Source: Candidatus Electrothrix rattekaaiensis (GTDB taxonomy: Bacteria > Desulfobacterota > Desulfobulbia > Desulfobulbales > Desulfobulbaceae). From it: a stretch of 64,000 nucleotides of DNA. The notes beneath the pieces were generated by a model, which searched no databases, was not told where the DNA came from, and saw only the letters and a program-made list of their open reading frames with translations. This document shows positions 33,508 to 64,000 of the stretch, piece after piece; position 1 is the stretch's first letter, and each line of letters starts with the position of its first letter. Made by a program: the position numbers and the translations under genes. Location of the stretch: assembly GCA_032595675.1 (NCBI GenBank), contig JAVQMD010000001.1:434001-498000 (forward strand). Reading direction: 5' to 3'.

Positions 33508-33780
33508 ACCTTGTTGCATATTTACAACAGGGGAGCCGGAAGGTACAACGCGACGTTTGAAATGTACAACGAGGCATTCGAAGTTTAAAACGTCGTACTT
33601 GAAGTTTCGAATGAGGTATTTTAAGCATCAAATGAGCCATTCGACGCTTCAAACGTGGCACTTGAAGCTTCATGTGAGGCATTCGAAGCTTAAAACGTGA
33701 CGTTTGAAGCGTGAAACGCGGTGTTTGAAGCGTTCAATAAGGCGTTTGAAGTTGCAAAAACGGTATTTTAACTCGCAATA
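33508..33780 (+). repeat. 21-bp-period degenerate tandem array A
   Basis: About 11-13 units. A GAAG-like tetramer recurs at 33559, 33580, 33601, 33622, 33643, 33664, 33685, 33706, 33727, 33748 and 33769, exactly 21 bases apart. A typical unit reads GAGGCA, TTCGAA, GCTTAAAAC. Units differ by several bases but never lose register in this stretch; one 20-base unit precedes it. The array ends about 40 bases before the ATG at 33811, which has a GAGGAGG ribosome site. Every frame reads as a heptapeptide repeat, so the open frames over it are artefacts or an unusual product. Confidence 0.85.
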
Positions 33781-33810: not shown

Positions 33811-34069
33811 ATGGCACGTTTTCCCACTCGTGAAGCGGACATCAGAACTTTAGTGCAGAAGATCATCGGTGGACGGGGGCAAGGCGGCCTTTTATCGGGT
33901 TGAGCAGCGGCAATTGCCTGACGGGGAATGGACAATGGTCGGCACGGCCTTGGAAACAGAGATCACCCTGAATAATCAGAAGCGCGGCAAAGAGCATGAG
34001 TACCGGGTCATTGCTGTGAACAAGGCTGGCGAAAGCGACCCGAGCAATACCGTGGCCGCAGTGCTGTAG
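33811..34069 (+). pseudogene. Deleted remnant of a fibronectin type III protein gene
   Basis: ATG at 33811 after GAGGAGG starts MARFPTREADIRTLVQKII, then leaves frame and stops at 33902. From 33869 another frame gives DGGKAAFYRVEQRQLPDGEW, ETEITL, EYRVIAVNKAGESDPSN, a clear fibronectin type III domain. The N-terminus and the domain match the two ends of a roughly 200-residue family, so an internal deletion with frameshift has removed the middle. It directly follows the 21-bp array. Confidence 0.65.
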
Positions 34070-53879: not shown

Positions 53880-55091
53880 ATGGAAGATATACAACAAATA
53901 TATACCCAGGCGGTTGCAGCCCATGAGCGCGGAGAGGTCGCTGAGGCTATAGAAGGTTACGGAAAAATTTTAGCCCAATTCCCGGATGCGGATGTGGTGC
54001 TCTATAATCAGGGTTTGGCCCTGTTTGACTCGGAGCGTTATGATGAGGCCGTCGCTGTCTTTTCCCGGGCAGCAGAACTGCGTCGGGATGATGCAGATAC
54101 TTGGTATAATCTGGGGCTGGCTCTGAAAAAGGAGCAGCGGCATTCCGAGGCAACAGATGCCTACAAGCAGGCCTTGGCTCTGCAACCGGATGACCCGGAT
54201 ATCCTGTTCAACCTTGCCAACTGTTGTCGGGAGAGCGGGGACAGGGAAGAGGCGGCGGTGTATTATGCCCGGCTGCTTGAGCTGGAACCGGATAATGTTT
54301 CGGCTCTGAATAATTTCGCCTACCTCTGCCATCTGCGCCATGATAATGCGCAGGCCGAGCAGTTGTATCTGCGGCTTCTTGCCCTGCAACCTGAGCATCC
54401 TGGTACCCGGCACATGCTGGCCGCCCTGACCGGCAAGTTCACAGGTACGCCGGAGAATGCCTATGTCCGCGATCTTTTTGATCAGTACAGCGACAGCTTT
54501 GAGCAGAGTTTGGTGGGAAAGCTGGGGTACTGCGTTCCAGAGCTGCTCTTTGAGCTGGCCTTCCGTACCTTTCCCGTACAGGGGATACAAAGCAGGAGGA
54601 TATATAAGCACTGTCTGGACCTCGGCTGCGGCACAGGGCTTGCTGGCAAGCTTTTCAGCACCTGTTGCCAGCGGCTGAGCGGGGTGGATCTGTCGGAGAA
54701 GATGATTGCCCGCGCTGCTGAAAAGGGTATCTATGACCGGCTTGTTGCCGATGATGTGGTGCATTTTCTTTGTGAAGATGGGCAGCAGTATGATTTGCTG
54801 GTTGCCGCTGATCTGTTCACCTATCTGGCTGATCTGGAACCGTTGCTCCATGCTGCTTTTCAGCGGACCGCAGCCGGTGGGATATTTATCTTTTCCACGG
54901 AACATGGCGAGAAACATCAGTGGCAGGTGCGACAAACCGGGCGTTTTGCCCATCGTCCCGAGTATGTGGTTGAGGTTGCGCAACGCAGCGGCTGGCAGCT
55001 TGTCACTTCCGAGGAGGCGGACCTGCGTCGGGAGGAGGATGCCTGGATACGGGGTGATCTTTTTGTTTTGATTAAAGAGGATGCTTCCTGA
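53880..55091 (+). CDS. TPR protein with C-terminal SAM-dependent methyltransferase domain
   Basis: 403 residues. The first 190 residues are tetratricopeptide repeats (YNQGLALFDSERYDEAVAVF, TWYNLGLALKKEQRHSEATDAY and similar). The second half is a class I methyltransferase with CLDLGCGTGLAGKLF (motif I) and SGVDLSEKMIARA. TPRs usually bind a partner or a peptide. It lies directly after the radical SAM gene on the same strand and is probably co-transcribed. Confidence 0.88.
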   Translation: MEDIQQIYTQAVAAHERGEVAEAIEGYGKILAQFPDADVVLYNQGLALFDSERYDEAVAVFSRAAELRRDDADTWYNLGLALKKEQRHSEATDAYKQALALQPDDPDILFNLANCCRESGDREEAAVYYARLLELEPDNVSALNNFAYLCHLRHDNAQAEQLYLRLLALQPEHPGTRHMLAALTGKFTGTPENAYVRDLFDQYSDSFEQSLVGKLGYCVPELLFELAFRTFPVQGIQSRRIYKHCLDLGCGTGLAGKLFSTCCQRLSGVDLSEKMIARAAEKGIYDRLVADDVVHFLCEDGQQYDLLVAADLFTYLADLEPLLHAAFQRTAAGGIFIFSTEHGEKHQWQVRQTGRFAHRPEYVVEVAQRSGWQLVTSEEADLRREEDAWIRGDLFVLIKEDAS

Positions 55092-55415
55092 TGCCTCATT
55101 CTTCTTTCCTCCTGTTCTTCTTCTCTTTTGCGGGTAGATAATACCCGCCTTGCGCTTTATGGTCGGGTAAAAGTTATCCGGCCCCTTTCTTTTTTTGGGT
55201 AAGAAGTCTCCTGAAACCATTGGAGAAAAATATATTCTCCGTCTTTACAAGCCTGTAAATCTGCGGTACGATATTTTTTCGTGCCACGAATTTCTTTTTC
55301 TTTGTGAGAACAGCATGTTTTTTGCAAGGTACATTGCACGAAATATCACCCTCCGCTGTGACAGCTCCCCGAGGACGGCTTTTTCCATGCTCCTGAACAG
55401 GAAAAGCGGCTCCTT

Positions 55416-55709
55416 GCTCTTTTCTTGCGAGTTGTTGCAGGAAGAAAGCGGCGGCTCGCAATTGTCCTGCCAAGGCTGGCAACTCAGTTGCGGGAGCCTG
55501 CAACTCTCTTGCGGGAGCTTGCAACTCTCTTGCGAGAGCTTGCAATTCAATTGCGGAGGCTCGCAACAAGCTTGCGGGGTCTTGCAACCTTCTTGCGGAT
55601 GCACGCAGGAAGCCTGCCAAAGGCCGCAACGAAAAAAGATGTCCTTGCAATTGAGTTGCAAGGGCTTGCAGGAAAGAATCCAGAACACGCAATGCAACAT
55701 ACGCCTGTG
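55416..55709 (+). repeat. 21-bp-period degenerate tandem array B
   Basis: GCAA or GCAG recurs at 55437, 55458, 55479, 55500, 55521, 55542, 55563, 55584, 55605, 55626, 55647, 55668 and 55689, 13 times exactly 21 bases apart; a GCTC fits at 55416. In the left-hand units examined (to about 55490) a second GC step sits 11 bases after the first. A typical unit is GGGAGC, TTGCAA, CTCTCTTGC. Register is kept while sequence drifts. All frames read as heptad repeats (GSLQLSC, LATLLRE, ARELQAP). The array ends about 50 bases before an AGGAGG-preceded small gene. Confidence 0.88.
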
Positions 55710-55757
55710 GCTTGAGAGCTGCGGCGTTTTCATACAACGAAACAGGAGGGCACCATC

Positions 55758-56102
55758 ATGTTGACGCGAAGTGTACCGAAGTTGTTGCAGGAAGCAGGAG
55801 AAGTAAAAGAGGCCCTGGAAAAGATCGGGGCCGGGCTGCCGGATGCCATCTCAGCGGTTGAGATGGAGACCAGGATTGTTGCCTTGGAAGGAAAGGTCAG
55901 TGCGCTGGATGCGGTCAATGCTGATCGGACGCGGCTGGTGAATGAGAAGGGCGATACGGCTGAGGATCTGAGTGATTATCTGGTGCGGGTTCGGGCGGCG
56001 GTCAAGGGGATTTTCGGGGACGATTCCTCGGAATACGAGATGGTCGGCGGAACCCGGGCGAGTGAGCGGAAGAAGCCTAAGAAGAAGGATAAGGAGGAGT
56101 GA
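55758..56102 (+). CDS. Small hypothetical protein following array B
   Basis: 114 residues starting MLTRSVPKLLQEAGEVKEALEK after AGGAGG. It is helical (AVEMETRIVALEGKVSALDAVNADRTRL) with a C-terminal VRAAVKGIFGDDSSEYEMVGGT and RASERKKPKKK. The SSEYE-VGGTR-SERK ending recurs in a family of small proteins found in bacteria with large accessory genomes. No known function. It occupies the same position behind a 21-bp array as the broken fibronectin gene at 33811. Confidence 0.7.
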   Translation: MLTRSVPKLLQEAGEVKEALEKIGAGLPDAISAVEMETRIVALEGKVSALDAVNADRTRLVNEKGDTAEDLSDYLVRVRAAVKGIFGDDSSEYEMVGGTRASERKKPKKKDKEE

Positions 56103-56149
56103 TGCTTCCCGGCCCGGAGAGGAATCTCAGGGCTGTTGGCGTATCCAGG

Positions 56150-56385
56150 CAGATTGCAACCTCCAGATAGACCAGCTCTCCTTTCCCCTGATTGCTTTGC
56201 AAAACAATGGGACCAGCGGGGGCATGGTACCGGTCACCGGGAACGGTGATTATACACTGCCCGGTTTTGCCGATCCCGCTGTGACCTCCTTGGAAATACG
56301 AATGAATAACTATGATGATCTCAAGGCGATGGTCCGTAACAACTATGGCGGCAAGCTGGTGGATATCCTGGATGTGACGGTGTAG
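56150..56385 (+). pseudogene. C-terminal remnant of an unknown protein
   Basis: In one frame the sequence reads LQIDQLSFPLIALQNN, GGMVPVTGNGDYTLPGF, VTSLEIRMNNYDDL and ends VDILDVTV, which looks like real beta-rich protein, but there is no start codon or ribosome site and the upstream frame belongs to another gene. Most likely the 3' end of a deleted gene. Confidence 0.35.
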
Positions 56386-56415
56386 ATACGGTTGTGAGCG
56401 GATGAGAATCTCATA

Positions 56416-56436
56416 GGGCGATCACAAGGATCGCCC
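56416..56436. repeat. GTAGGGGC-family palindrome, copy at 56.4 kb
   Basis: GGGCGATC ACAAG GATCGCCC, 8-bp perfect stem. Its core is identical to that of the copy at 14060. The left flank is TAGGG and lacks the full GTAGGGGC end. Confidence 0.7.
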
Positions 56437-56449
56437 GGTGTGTTTCTCT

Positions 56450-56530
56450 GCTTGATATCGGGATTCGAACCCGCGCCTCGACCTGTAACCCGCATGGCTG
56501 CGCGGTCTGTTTTTTCGGCTGCTGTGATAC
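56450..56530 (-). other. tRNA-like 3'-half fragment, copy B
   Basis: On the minus strand: GTATCACA, AGCCATGCGG, AGGTCGAGG, the T-arm GCGGGTTCGAATCCCG, then ATATCAAGC. The block order matches the copy at 33290. The T-loop is a perfect TTCGAAT. Acceptor and D-arms are missing. It lies at the left edge of the AT-rich ATPase/TOPRIM segment. Confidence 0.45.
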
Positions 56531-56659
56531 TGGCGTGGGTACTTTTTGTTGATTTTTTAAGGTGAAGCTTCAAAAAAATGTTTGTTAGATTAAGTATAAT
56601 AAGTTATTTTTTAGTGGGGCATCTGGGTGTAAAAAAAATATATAGTCCAATTCGATAAT

Positions 56660-57799
56660 ATGCGTTTAATATCTTTAAAATATTCTCAGTGGGATCAAGG
56701 CGGGAATAATTGGTCGATAGAAGATTTTTCTTGTGCAAAGATTAATCTTATTGTGGGGCAGAATTCTATAGGAAAAAGTAGAACTATTAATGTTATTAAC
56801 GGCTTGTCTTCAATGTTAATAGGGAAGGAGATAAAGATAGGCTATGCTCAGTATAAAGCTTATTTTAAAGATCAAGAAGACTTGATTGAATATTTGTTAG
56901 AATACGACAATTACAAGATAGTCAAAGAAACTTTAAAAATTGGCGATACTTTTTTTTTGGAGAGAGAAGAGGATGGTATTGGTTCAATCTATGCTGACCA
57001 ACTTAAACAGCAGATAAAATTTCAAGTTCCTGATACGAGTATTGCTTCCGTCGTAAAACGGGACTCTATTCAGCACCCCTTTCTTCAACGACTTTATAAT
57101 TGGGGGGAATCTACAAGGCTATATAGATTTGGGACAAGTCTTGGAAAAGAAAATCTTGCCATTTTTAAAGAAACTCCCCCTTCCGAGGAAGAACGAAGGA
57201 AAATAGATGTTCGGAATACATCAAATGTTGTGGTTTTTTTAAAACAAGCTATTAAGGATTTTGGTGATAGTTTCGTTTCTTCCATTTTAGATGATATAAA
57301 TAGGCTTGGATACAACCTTACCGATATTGGAGTTGCTCCAATAGTTAACTCTGTAATTTCGACACCAATGTTAGATGTTCCAGAAGGAATTTATATAAAA
57401 GAAGCTGAACACGATCATATAGTTGAGCAGATTGAAATTTCTCAAGGTTTATTTCGTTCATTATCACTATTTATTCAATTGAGATTTTCTGAACGTTATA
57501 GTCAGCCAAGTTTGATTCTAATTGATGATATTGGAGAGGGTTTGGATTATGAAAGATCTACAAAGCTCATACAAAATATTATAGATATAGCAGAATCTGA
57601 AAATATTCAACTTATCATGACGACAAACGATAGATTTGTTATGAATAATGTCTCTCTTGAATATTGGTCAGTAATGAAACGAGAAGGGAGCTGTTGTCAT
57701 TTTATAAACAGCAAGGATCATAAGGAGCTATTTGATGATTTTGATTTAACCGGATTGAGTAATTTTGATTTTTTTACATCAAAATACTATAACAAATAG
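56660..57799 (+). CDS. AAA/ABC-type ATPase, first gene of a putative defence pair
   Basis: 379 residues. Walker A is GQNSIGKS (33-40) and Walker B is LILIDDIGEGLD with the Asp pair at 289-290, followed by MTTNDRF in the sensor position. The layout resembles the OLD-type and AAA_15/21 ATPases of anti-phage systems, with a short insertion between the two halves. The gene is AT-rich, unlike the flanking core genes, and is followed after 10 bases by a TOPRIM-like gene. No ribosome site stands out, but the start ATG fits the ATPase N-terminus (LISLKYSQW). Confidence 0.82.
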   Translation: MRLISLKYSQWDQGGNNWSIEDFSCAKINLIVGQNSIGKSRTINVINGLSSMLIGKEIKIGYAQYKAYFKDQEDLIEYLLEYDNYKIVKETLKIGDTFFLEREEDGIGSIYADQLKQQIKFQVPDTSIASVVKRDSIQHPFLQRLYNWGESTRLYRFGTSLGKENLAIFKETPPSEEERRKIDVRNTSNVVVFLKQAIKDFGDSFVSSILDDINRLGYNLTDIGVAPIVNSVISTPMLDVPEGIYIKEAEHDHIVEQIEISQGLFRSLSLFIQLRFSERYSQPSLILIDDIGEGLDYERSTKLIQNIIDIAESENIQLIMTTNDRFVMNNVSLEYWSVMKREGSCCHFINSKDHKELFDDFDLTGLSNFDFFTSKYYNK

Positions 57800-57809
57800 A
57801 ATAGAGTGA

Positions 57810-58550
57810 ATGAGAAAAATAGCAATTTTTGTAGAGGGGCAAAGCGAACAAATATTCGTAAGAAATATACTGTATCATATTTCAGGAAATGTAAGCTTTA
57901 GCTTTGAGTGCATCAAGATACATGGCGGGATTGATAGAAATGTTCCATATGCCGTGAGAAACCATGATTCTCAAATTTTTTTTCTAATCATAAATGTTGA
58001 AAATGATAGCAAGGTATTATCTTTTATAAAAGAACGAGAGAAAGCCCTTTTTGAAAAAGGTTATAATAGGATTATAGGCTTGCGAGATATGTATTCATTA
58101 GAATACCGTAAACGGTCGAAAGATAAGATAGATCTCAATATAAATGAAAATTTTATTAAGGCCCATGATAAAATTATTTGCTCAATGTCTTCACCTGAAA
58201 ATATTAATTTTTTCTTTTCAATAATGGAATTTGAAGCGTGGCTATTAGGCATGCACACAATATTTGAAAAGATAGATGATCGTTTGAGTGTCGAGTTAAT
58301 TCAAAGGAAACTTGATATTTTATTGGATCAAGTAGACCCTGAAACCGCTTTTTTTCATCCTGCTGCTGTTTTGGATAAAATTTTCAATCTTGTAGATATG
58401 TCGTATAATAAAAAGTATGATGATTTAGAATCAATTACAAGTAAAATAGAGCTGGATGATATAGCTAAACTCGTGAACTCTGGAGGATGCTTAAGTTTTG
58501 CTTCTTTTTATAAAAATATCAAAGAAGAGTTTTTTAACTGTTCTGCATAA
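57810..58550 (+). CDS. TOPRIM-like (DUF4276-type) protein, partner of the ATPase
   Basis: 246 residues. It starts RKIAIFVEGQSEQIFVRNIL, the TOPRIM Glu strand of DUF4276-like proteins, and has FFFSIMEFEAWLLGM, their EFEAWLL signature. The canonical DxD is not obvious (INVENDS). ATPase plus TOPRIM pairs occur in OLD, Gabija and PARIS defence systems, where the TOPRIM part is a nuclease. Same AT-rich composition and 10-base spacing to the ATPase gene point to one module. The partnership is strong inference, the defence role moderate. Confidence 0.75.
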   Translation: MRKIAIFVEGQSEQIFVRNILYHISGNVSFSFECIKIHGGIDRNVPYAVRNHDSQIFFLIINVENDSKVLSFIKEREKALFEKGYNRIIGLRDMYSLEYRKRSKDKIDLNINENFIKAHDKIICSMSSPENINFFFSIMEFEAWLLGMHTIFEKIDDRLSVELIQRKLDILLDQVDPETAFFHPAAVLDKIFNLVDMSYNKKYDDLESITSKIELDDIAKLVNSGGCLSFASFYKNIKEEFFNCSA

Positions 58551-63532: not shown

Positions 63533-64000
63533 GTGAAGAAGACAAAGAACGGCTTGTACATCGGTGATACTTGGGAGGAGTTCGTGGCGCAGCGGGAAAG
63601 GCTGCCGAACTGGAAAATTCCCCTGAGTATAGCGGCTGTTCTTCATCTTGTTGTTTTTACGAGTGCTGCTGTTTTTCCGGATATCGGTAAAAAGTTTAAT
63701 CCGGATAATGTGATCACTATTGATCTGCTCTCTTTGCCTTCGGGAGCTGGACCGGAAGAGGATGAAAAACCGGCAGAGCAGCCTGCCCCGGAAGTTAAAG
63801 AGGTTGCGGAGGCGGCAGAACCAACCCCGGTGCTTCCTGTTGTTGCACCGAAAAAAAAATTGAAAGTTGCACCAAAGGTTACGCCAAAGGTTACACCAAA
63901 AGTTGCACCAAAGGTTGTGCCGAAAATTGTAGCAAAACCGGCAGCTTCTCCTGAACCGGTTGCTCAGGTTAAACCTGTTTCACTTCAGCCTGTAAAACGA
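63533..64000 (+). CDS. tolA: TolA/TonB-like energy-transducing protein, 5' part (cut by window end)
   Basis: At least 156 codons without a stop, from a GTG at 63533; the start is uncertain because no ATG or good ribosome site precedes it. A single membrane helix (IPLSIAAVLHLVVFTSAAVF) is followed by an acidic Pro/Glu region and then a Pro/Lys/Val repeat (KVTPK, KVAPK, KVVPK), the extended periplasm-spanning segment of TolA/TonB proteins. It follows tolR by 36 bases, so TolA is likely. Confidence 0.8.
   Translation, partial: MKKTKNGLYIGDTWEEFVAQRERLPNWKIPLSIAAVLHLVVFTSAAVFPDIGKKFNPDNVITIDLLSLPSGAGPEEDEKPAEQPAPEVKEVAEAAEPTPVLPVVAPKKKLKVAPKVTPKVTPKVAPKVVPKIVAKPAASPEPVAQVKPVSLQPVKR

Follow-up and report, generated by a model that had tools for sequence, protein, structure and literature searches.

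An apparently non-coding 21-bp-period array in front of a small multicopy gene of Candidatus Electrothrix is linked to the gene family across phyla

In the 64,000-nt stretch of the Candidatus Electrothrix rattekaaiensis genome analysed here (the window; source assembly of 4.48 Mb in five contigs), a degenerate repeat in strict 21-bp register stands in front of a small gene, raising the question of what the array is and whether it belongs to the gene. This array, array B (55416–55699, plus strand), comprises ~13 units of 21 bp with the core unit GGAGCYTGCAACTCTCTTGCG. The original prediction described GCAA or GCAG recurring every 21 bp, and we found the motif at 13 of 13 predicted positions (55437 + 21n, n = 0 to 12, the last at 55689–55692), compared with at most five GCA[AG] in one 21-bp register in 5000 shuffles. 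Lag-21 identity over 55416–55758 is 0.491 vs. 0.251 in shuffles (sd 0.025, maximum 0.340), and lags 42 and 63 are as strong (0.488 and 0.543, respectively). TRF places the core of the array at 55475–55598, and only array B and a second array, array A, exceed 50% lag-21 identity over 150 bp in the window. The pattern first described is therefore real, with two amendments. A second GC does follow 11 bp on in 10 of the 13 units, but the half-period proposed from it does not generalize, as the 10.5-bp harmonic is not in general excess (z = 0.6, 33 arrays). Furthermore, the array was thought to run straight into the Shine-Dalgarno sequence, whereas ~50 bp separate the last GCAA (55689–55692) from the AGGAGG at 55744.

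The leader that carries this AGGAGG (55700–55757, plus strand) is well conserved across four loci (L001, L024, L025, and L026), and the best sigma70-like site between array B and the gene is no better than in shuffled sequence. The gene itself (55758–56102, plus strand) encodes a 114-aa protein of a multicopy family with a C-terminal GGTRxSERKK motif, hereafter the GGTR family. An AlphaFold2 model has helices at residues 6–23 and 33–86 and a low-confidence basic C-terminus. Pfam and NCBIfam gave no family for it at E ≤ 1, a structure search with the model returned nothing at E ≤ 0.001, and no recognised DNA-binding fold was found by sequence and structure searches; a PDB sequence match (6mol_A) was discarded as an artefact of weak repeated matches. 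Downstream, a terminator-like hairpin, CCCGGAGA-GGAA-TCTCAGGG, can be read from the sequence at 56112–56133 (plus strand), and homology among L001-type copies (L005, L006, L026, L030, and L038) stops ~5–15 bp beyond it. The cassette is abutted by the C-terminal remnant (56131–56382, plus strand) of another multicopy family, of ~360 aa and HU fold.

Searches of its own genome with the 114-aa protein gave 17 matches (E ≤ 10), six of them full-length, and 8 of 37 genomes, its own included, contain matches. Named relatives, among 80 of the 103 related loci, come from Ca. Electrothrix, Ca. Electronema, and other Desulfobulbaceae, which makes a cable bacterium the probable host. A second GGTR subfamily (MAYKRKSS...LDLGNGLT) has the C-terminal EYEMxGGTRxSERKK in common with the first, and the family occurs in 8 further genomes with 1–18 matches each, five of which hold 12–18 matches per genome on many contigs. 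All 31 significant N-terminal GGTR matches in six genomes are full copies, and several C-terminal-only pieces exist. We do not claim a retroelement-like 5′ truncation, because pieces with the N-terminus alone (e.g., G004:C1:4776660 and G002:C141) occur in the HU-like family without a partner piece and because the C-terminus is the more conserved end. At one locus (L004, G000:C1:2255581-2258919), the 1.1 kb after a complete GGTR gene contain additional C-terminal GGTR pieces of the same orientation, which gives the impression of cassettes that were stacked and then eroded.

We evaluated the association of array and gene by scoring 19 periods (14–32 bp) in up to 1 kb upstream of each family locus. 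After merging, 122 loci gave 101 distinct ones, of which 94 are full by an open frame of at least 100 aa; the split is rough, since one of the seven fragment rows outside the 94 (L036) has a full gene. L129–L148, which are partly duplicates, were left out of the count. The best upstream period was 21 bp at 86 of the 94 loci (the array B locus included; 68 with a score of at least 0.52), compared with 4 of 93 in the downstream control (one with a score of at least 0.52). A first pass over 120 rows that included duplicates had given 85 at 21 bp above threshold, with 6 of 121 controls above it at any period. By phylum, with labels assigned by hand from record titles and kinship, the 21-bp loci are 42/44 in Desulfobacterota, 35/39 in Cyanobacteriota, 5/5 in Acidobacteriota, 2/2 in Chloroflexota, and 1/1 in Bacteroidota, and 1/3 among loci without a phylum. 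The eight remaining loci have arrays of ~41 bp (L102), 20 bp (L108 and L119), or 22 bp (L041, near a contig end), no clear array (L039 and L095), or almost no upstream DNA and yet are scored as misses (L106 and L107). The link between the 21-bp period and the GGTR gene family thus spans five named phyla, although two contribute only one or two loci each. In the source genome, each of the 11 full copies examined (L001–L006, L008, L009, and L012–L014) has a 21-bp-period array upstream, and the array letters differ between GGTR subgroups (L001–L015); blastn separates the arrays into clusters. The period is kept in relatives, as expected of the protein-array or structural role originally suggested, and the array does go with the gene behind it.

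Two further gene families are preceded by arrays. Array A (33571–33751, plus strand), the second 21-bp array of the window, has another unit sequence and precedes a disrupted gene of a third multicopy family (MARFPTREADI... plus fibronectin III, or FN3; 33811–34069, plus strand). This FN3-family gene lies in two pieces in different frames; its relatives at L019 and L020 are intact at ~201 aa and have 21/42/63-bp-period arrays upstream. The HU-fold family, with 2–30 matches in each of 7 genomes searched, is preceded in the source genome by arrays of 23 bp at 8 of 10 loci, with 24 bp at one and no clear array at another (L163), and 23 bp is never the best period in its downstream controls, one of which scored 0.70 at 27 bp. 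Pfam HU-DNA_bdg is found in 6 of 8 HU-like members (best E 1.1e-6; member 1 is below the curated cut-off, with 13.1 vs. 30 bits). The top Foldseek match is a putative DNA-binding protein (4fmr), HU chains align at Z of about 10 over 71–88 residues, Ig-like parts follow the HU domain, and DUF4469 is present in 5 of 8 members. Within one genome the period is therefore specific to the gene family: 21 bp in the GGTR and FN3 families and 23 bp in the HU-fold family. Two turns of B-DNA per unit, as originally put forward, are weakened as the whole explanation of the period by the 23-bp arrays of this sister family.

The gene is a much better predictor of an array than an array is of the gene. A 400-kb sample of the source genome (G000) contains five non-coding arrays of the 21-bp class and four of the 23-bp class, and no complete gene of any of the three families lies within 2.5 kb of these nine. 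Orphan array L173 has a weak GGTR fragment from the N-terminal part nearby, and orphans L167 and L169 look, by eye, like the arrays of L008 and L009. The 23-bp arrays L170, L175, L181, and L183, which have no HU-like gene within 2.5 kb, share a TACCTAGGTA-type palindrome. A 400-kb sample of Westiellopsis holds 13 arrays of the 21-bp class, some before unrelated genes, and 21-class density in three genomes carrying the GGTR family is 5–13 per 400 kb. Comparison of genomes by their GGTR matches is no more than suggestive of a control of array presence by gene presence. G006, of the same genus, has two GGTR matches, a partial one at E 1e-14 and another at 0.04; its 800 kb hold no 23-class array and three 21/42-bp arrays, one coding-embedded by elimination (the coding filter covers the first 400 kb), compared with five and four in 400 kb of G000. 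G012 has no GGTR match better than E 0.155 and one 22-bp array in 400 kb, whereas G007 has 11 GGTR matches with five 21-class arrays, some coding in appearance, and no 23-class array.

Comparison of arrays suggests that unit length is kept while sequence changes. Orthologous arrays differ by one missing 21-bp unit plus substitutions (L001/L024) or by a 42-bp gap plus substitutions (L003/L031), and in the Nostoc cluster (10 of 16 arrays examined) the units change together and remain 21 bp long. Across 13 orthologous or paralogous array pairs, in which some loci are used twice, four internal gaps measure 21, 3, 1, and 1 bp; only one is unit-sized, and small slips are therefore rare, not absent. 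Substitutions in these pairs fall on the three codon positions as 159/186/117 in arrays vs. 91/71/248 in genes, the array counts being not perfectly uniform (p = 4e-4). The spectra of 33 arrays have a strong fundamental (z 17.7), reflecting half-unit asymmetry, and no excess of the 3-bp harmonic over column-permuted arrays. Raw period-3 signal (0.6–11.7 in arrays, spanning the genes' 1.5–8.9) is uninformative because 3 divides 21. The arrays are thus apparently non-coding.

Of 32 array clusters, 16 show dyad symmetry beyond the null (z > 1.64), where ~1.6 are expected (mean z 1.55), and the other 16 show no significant symmetry. The test counts Watson-Crick pairs only and sets the best centre against 100 column permutations; the clusters, separated by blastn (30 of 21 bp and two of 20 bp), are not fully independent, L003 and L031 being orthologous, and exclude L016, a fragment with a 23-bp array. 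Both 20-bp arrays score below the null. HU-like family arrays are above the null in 11 of 14 cases (mean z 2.58), in a hand-delimited set that contains one 24-bp array and related pairs (L155/L164 and L152/L154). Of two earlier tests, one admitted G:U pairs at the best centre, and in the other, conditioned on purine/pyrimidine opposition, 26 of 33 clusters are positive (mean z 1.47). G:T and A:C mismatches are depleted to the same degree (0.87/0.86 and 0.70/0.68), which means that neither strand is favoured. We found no compensatory pairing within units: within-unit pairing is not better than between-unit pairing (mean z −0.51 and −0.34, with a slight downward bias from choosing the centre on between-unit pairing), the outcome expected of half-sites that are read independently. 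Dyads without G:T bias or compensation are more in keeping with DNA sites bound by a dimeric protein than with RNA hairpins; tetraloop-like forms can be drawn in single units, but these two counts speak against hairpins. The phased protein-binding element of the original prediction is a better fit to the sequence than a coding repeat, while its bent-DNA variant is not supported: a simple nearest-neighbour roll model gives no clear excess of curvature over column-permuted arrays (mean z 0.23; 4 of 32 above 1.64), and array B itself has z −1.08.

Between array and gene, the interval considered, some loci have promoter-like sites. TTGACA-N17-TAnnnT was seen by eye ~20–70 bp past the array in five of six 23-bp loci examined, and 9 of 16 Nostoc-cluster loci have TTGGYT-N18-TAWAAT as their best site, 19–28 bp beyond the array. 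A promoter after the array as a universal rule was rejected, the best site in most loci being no better than in shuffled sequence. Fifteen rows, representing 10 distinct Desulfobulbaceae loci, have arrays that end within ~40 bp of the start codon, leaving no space for such a site, and the array in those 10 loci is therefore transcribed or overlaps the promoter.

Array B is genuine and belongs to a class already known but lacking an explanation. Subirana and Messeguer (IJMS 2021, PMC8161180) described bacterial tandem repeats of constant size (20–23 nt) and variable sequence, a class reported earlier in J Bacteriol 2020 (10.1128/JB.00229-20, as cited there); they point out that 20–21 nt spans two turns of the helix and raise the idea of a protein that polymerises along the DNA. 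Our arrays resemble these satellites, as the paper presents them, in unit length (20–21, or 20–23, nt), in sequence that differs between arrays, in the presence of several families per genome, in their generally non-coding nature, and in their occurrence in Cyanobacteria and others. Four features of constant-size satellites are present here: units of 20–23 nt, varied units per genome, apparently no protein coding, and dispersed arrays. The general class is thus already published, without a function. Apparently new, relative to PMC8161180 as consulted, whose main text lacks the words upstream, downstream, flank, and adjacent, are the linkage to gene families, the family-specific period, the dyad-symmetric units, and the unit-length differences between orthologues. 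No report of gene linkage for such arrays appeared in the literature searched, which reached few subscription papers, and the passages of PMC10580974, PMC6749651, and PMC8625621 retrieved do not bear on it. The TAACTGA direct repeats of marine Beggiatoaceae (PMC4679880) are likewise short, intergenic, and in filamentous sulfur bacteria; unlike our 21-nt, variable-sequence arrays, they have a fixed 7-nt unit. Satellites of this class have, in the sources above, been described without function or partner until now, and the tie to multicopy gene families, one of them of HU fold, gives candidate proteins.

We propose tentatively, at a little short of an even chance, that array B is a non-coding cis DNA element on whose dyad-symmetric sites a dimeric protein probably assembles cooperatively. 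Its ~13 sites, one per 21 bp or two helical turns, would carry the protein along one helix face, and the array, the coiled-coil gene behind it, and that gene's terminator would form one unit. Selection would keep the spacing while site letters drift or differ wholesale between cassettes, so that each cassette would have its own address. From sequence patterns we infer that a protein binds the array, that it does so as a dimer, and that the binder may be the product of the cassette or of a paralogue; such a binder would control or organise its own locus.

The arrays could instead be ordinary 20–23 nt satellites, born by slippage, neutral or nucleoid-packaging, and located upstream of mobile multicopy genes without serving them. 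This reading, which we consider somewhat unlikely, gains from the published precedent of a constant-size, variable-sequence class with no known function (PMC8161180), from arrays dispersed in intergenic DNA without these genes, and from the orphans that resemble arrays of L008 and L009; yet it does not predict 86 of 94 upstream vs. 4 of 93 downstream, far above a density of 5–13 21-class arrays per 400 kb, nor a period that follows the gene family within one genome (21 vs. 23 bp). Remnants of integrated replicons are very improbable as a source. In parC/ParR centromeres and plasmid iterons, too, tandem sites some 20 bp long adjoin a small gene, but our arrays are dispersed and multicopy (five of eight genomes hold 12–18 matches each, spread over many contigs), and Pfam detected neither ParM-like nor Rep or relaxase families in the nine reading frames around array B. 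One of 72,556 plasmid records carries a relative of the Nostoc protein, and no viral contig was confirmed.

Readings in which the array is expressed fare less well. As RNA, transcribed repeats would act as hairpins or as a protein sponge regulating the gene, in the manner of the ToxIN-type (type III) antitoxins, in which a repeat array lies directly upstream of a small gene. Array B has that layout, the 10 Desulfobulbaceae loci have arrays near the start codon, and the purine/pyrimidine half-unit asymmetry is strong in many arrays. Nevertheless, we judge this improbable: the units lack RNA pairing signals (no preference for G:T over A:C and no compensatory changes), promoter-like sites lie between array and gene in the five HU-like and nine Nostoc-cluster loci above, and no Rfam family reaches its gathering score in 55000–56700. 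The 114-aa protein is modelled as two helices, and Pfam (E ≤ 1) and NCBIfam searches with it found no ToxN/CptN/TenpN-type toxin. A heptad-repeat peptide (7 residues for each 21-bp unit), encoded separately or as a fusion with the gene, is scarcely plausible. Heptad-like patterns occur in one or more open forward frames of many listed arrays, 21 is divisible by 3, the L012 gene's own frame is open through much of its array, and single arrays (L012, L013, and L015) make heptad coding attractive. It failed on codon position and frame constancy: array substitutions lack the third-position bias of genes, no 3-bp harmonic excess is present, the position of the open frame relative to that of the gene varies among the arrays listed, and periods of 20 bp (L108 and L119), ~41 bp (L102), and 23 bp (the sister family) occur.

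The cooperative-assembly proposal for array B has a broader and distinctly doubtful extension, namely a cross-phylum cassette with a private address, in which each protein family would assemble on its own upstream array, recognised by period and dyad. The coiled-coil GGTR and FN3 families would use 21 bp and the HU-fold family 23 bp, and site letters would diversify so that paralogues avoid cross-reaction. If this is true, the orphan 20–23 nt satellites of many bacteria would be its detached addresses. The linkage gives a testable rule, that the period follows the gene family, with many natural replicates in unrelated phyla, including bench-testable Nostoc-type cyanobacteria.

Further repeats and genes were observed in the window beyond the cassette. 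A tRNA-like dispersed repeat lies at 56451–56530; its reverse strand looks like a tRNA 3′ half, it has 19 genome matches, it also appears, by eye, in the flanks of L031, L033, and L155, and ARAGORN called no tRNA at this position. Beside the cassette, 56660–58550 encodes a probable AAA_21-type ATPase (just under the Pfam cut-off) followed by a DUF4276 protein, a pair that resembles an abortive-infection or OLD-type defence module. Near the window end, a separate array of 12-bp period with the unit GTTGCACCAAAG occupies 63829–63986.
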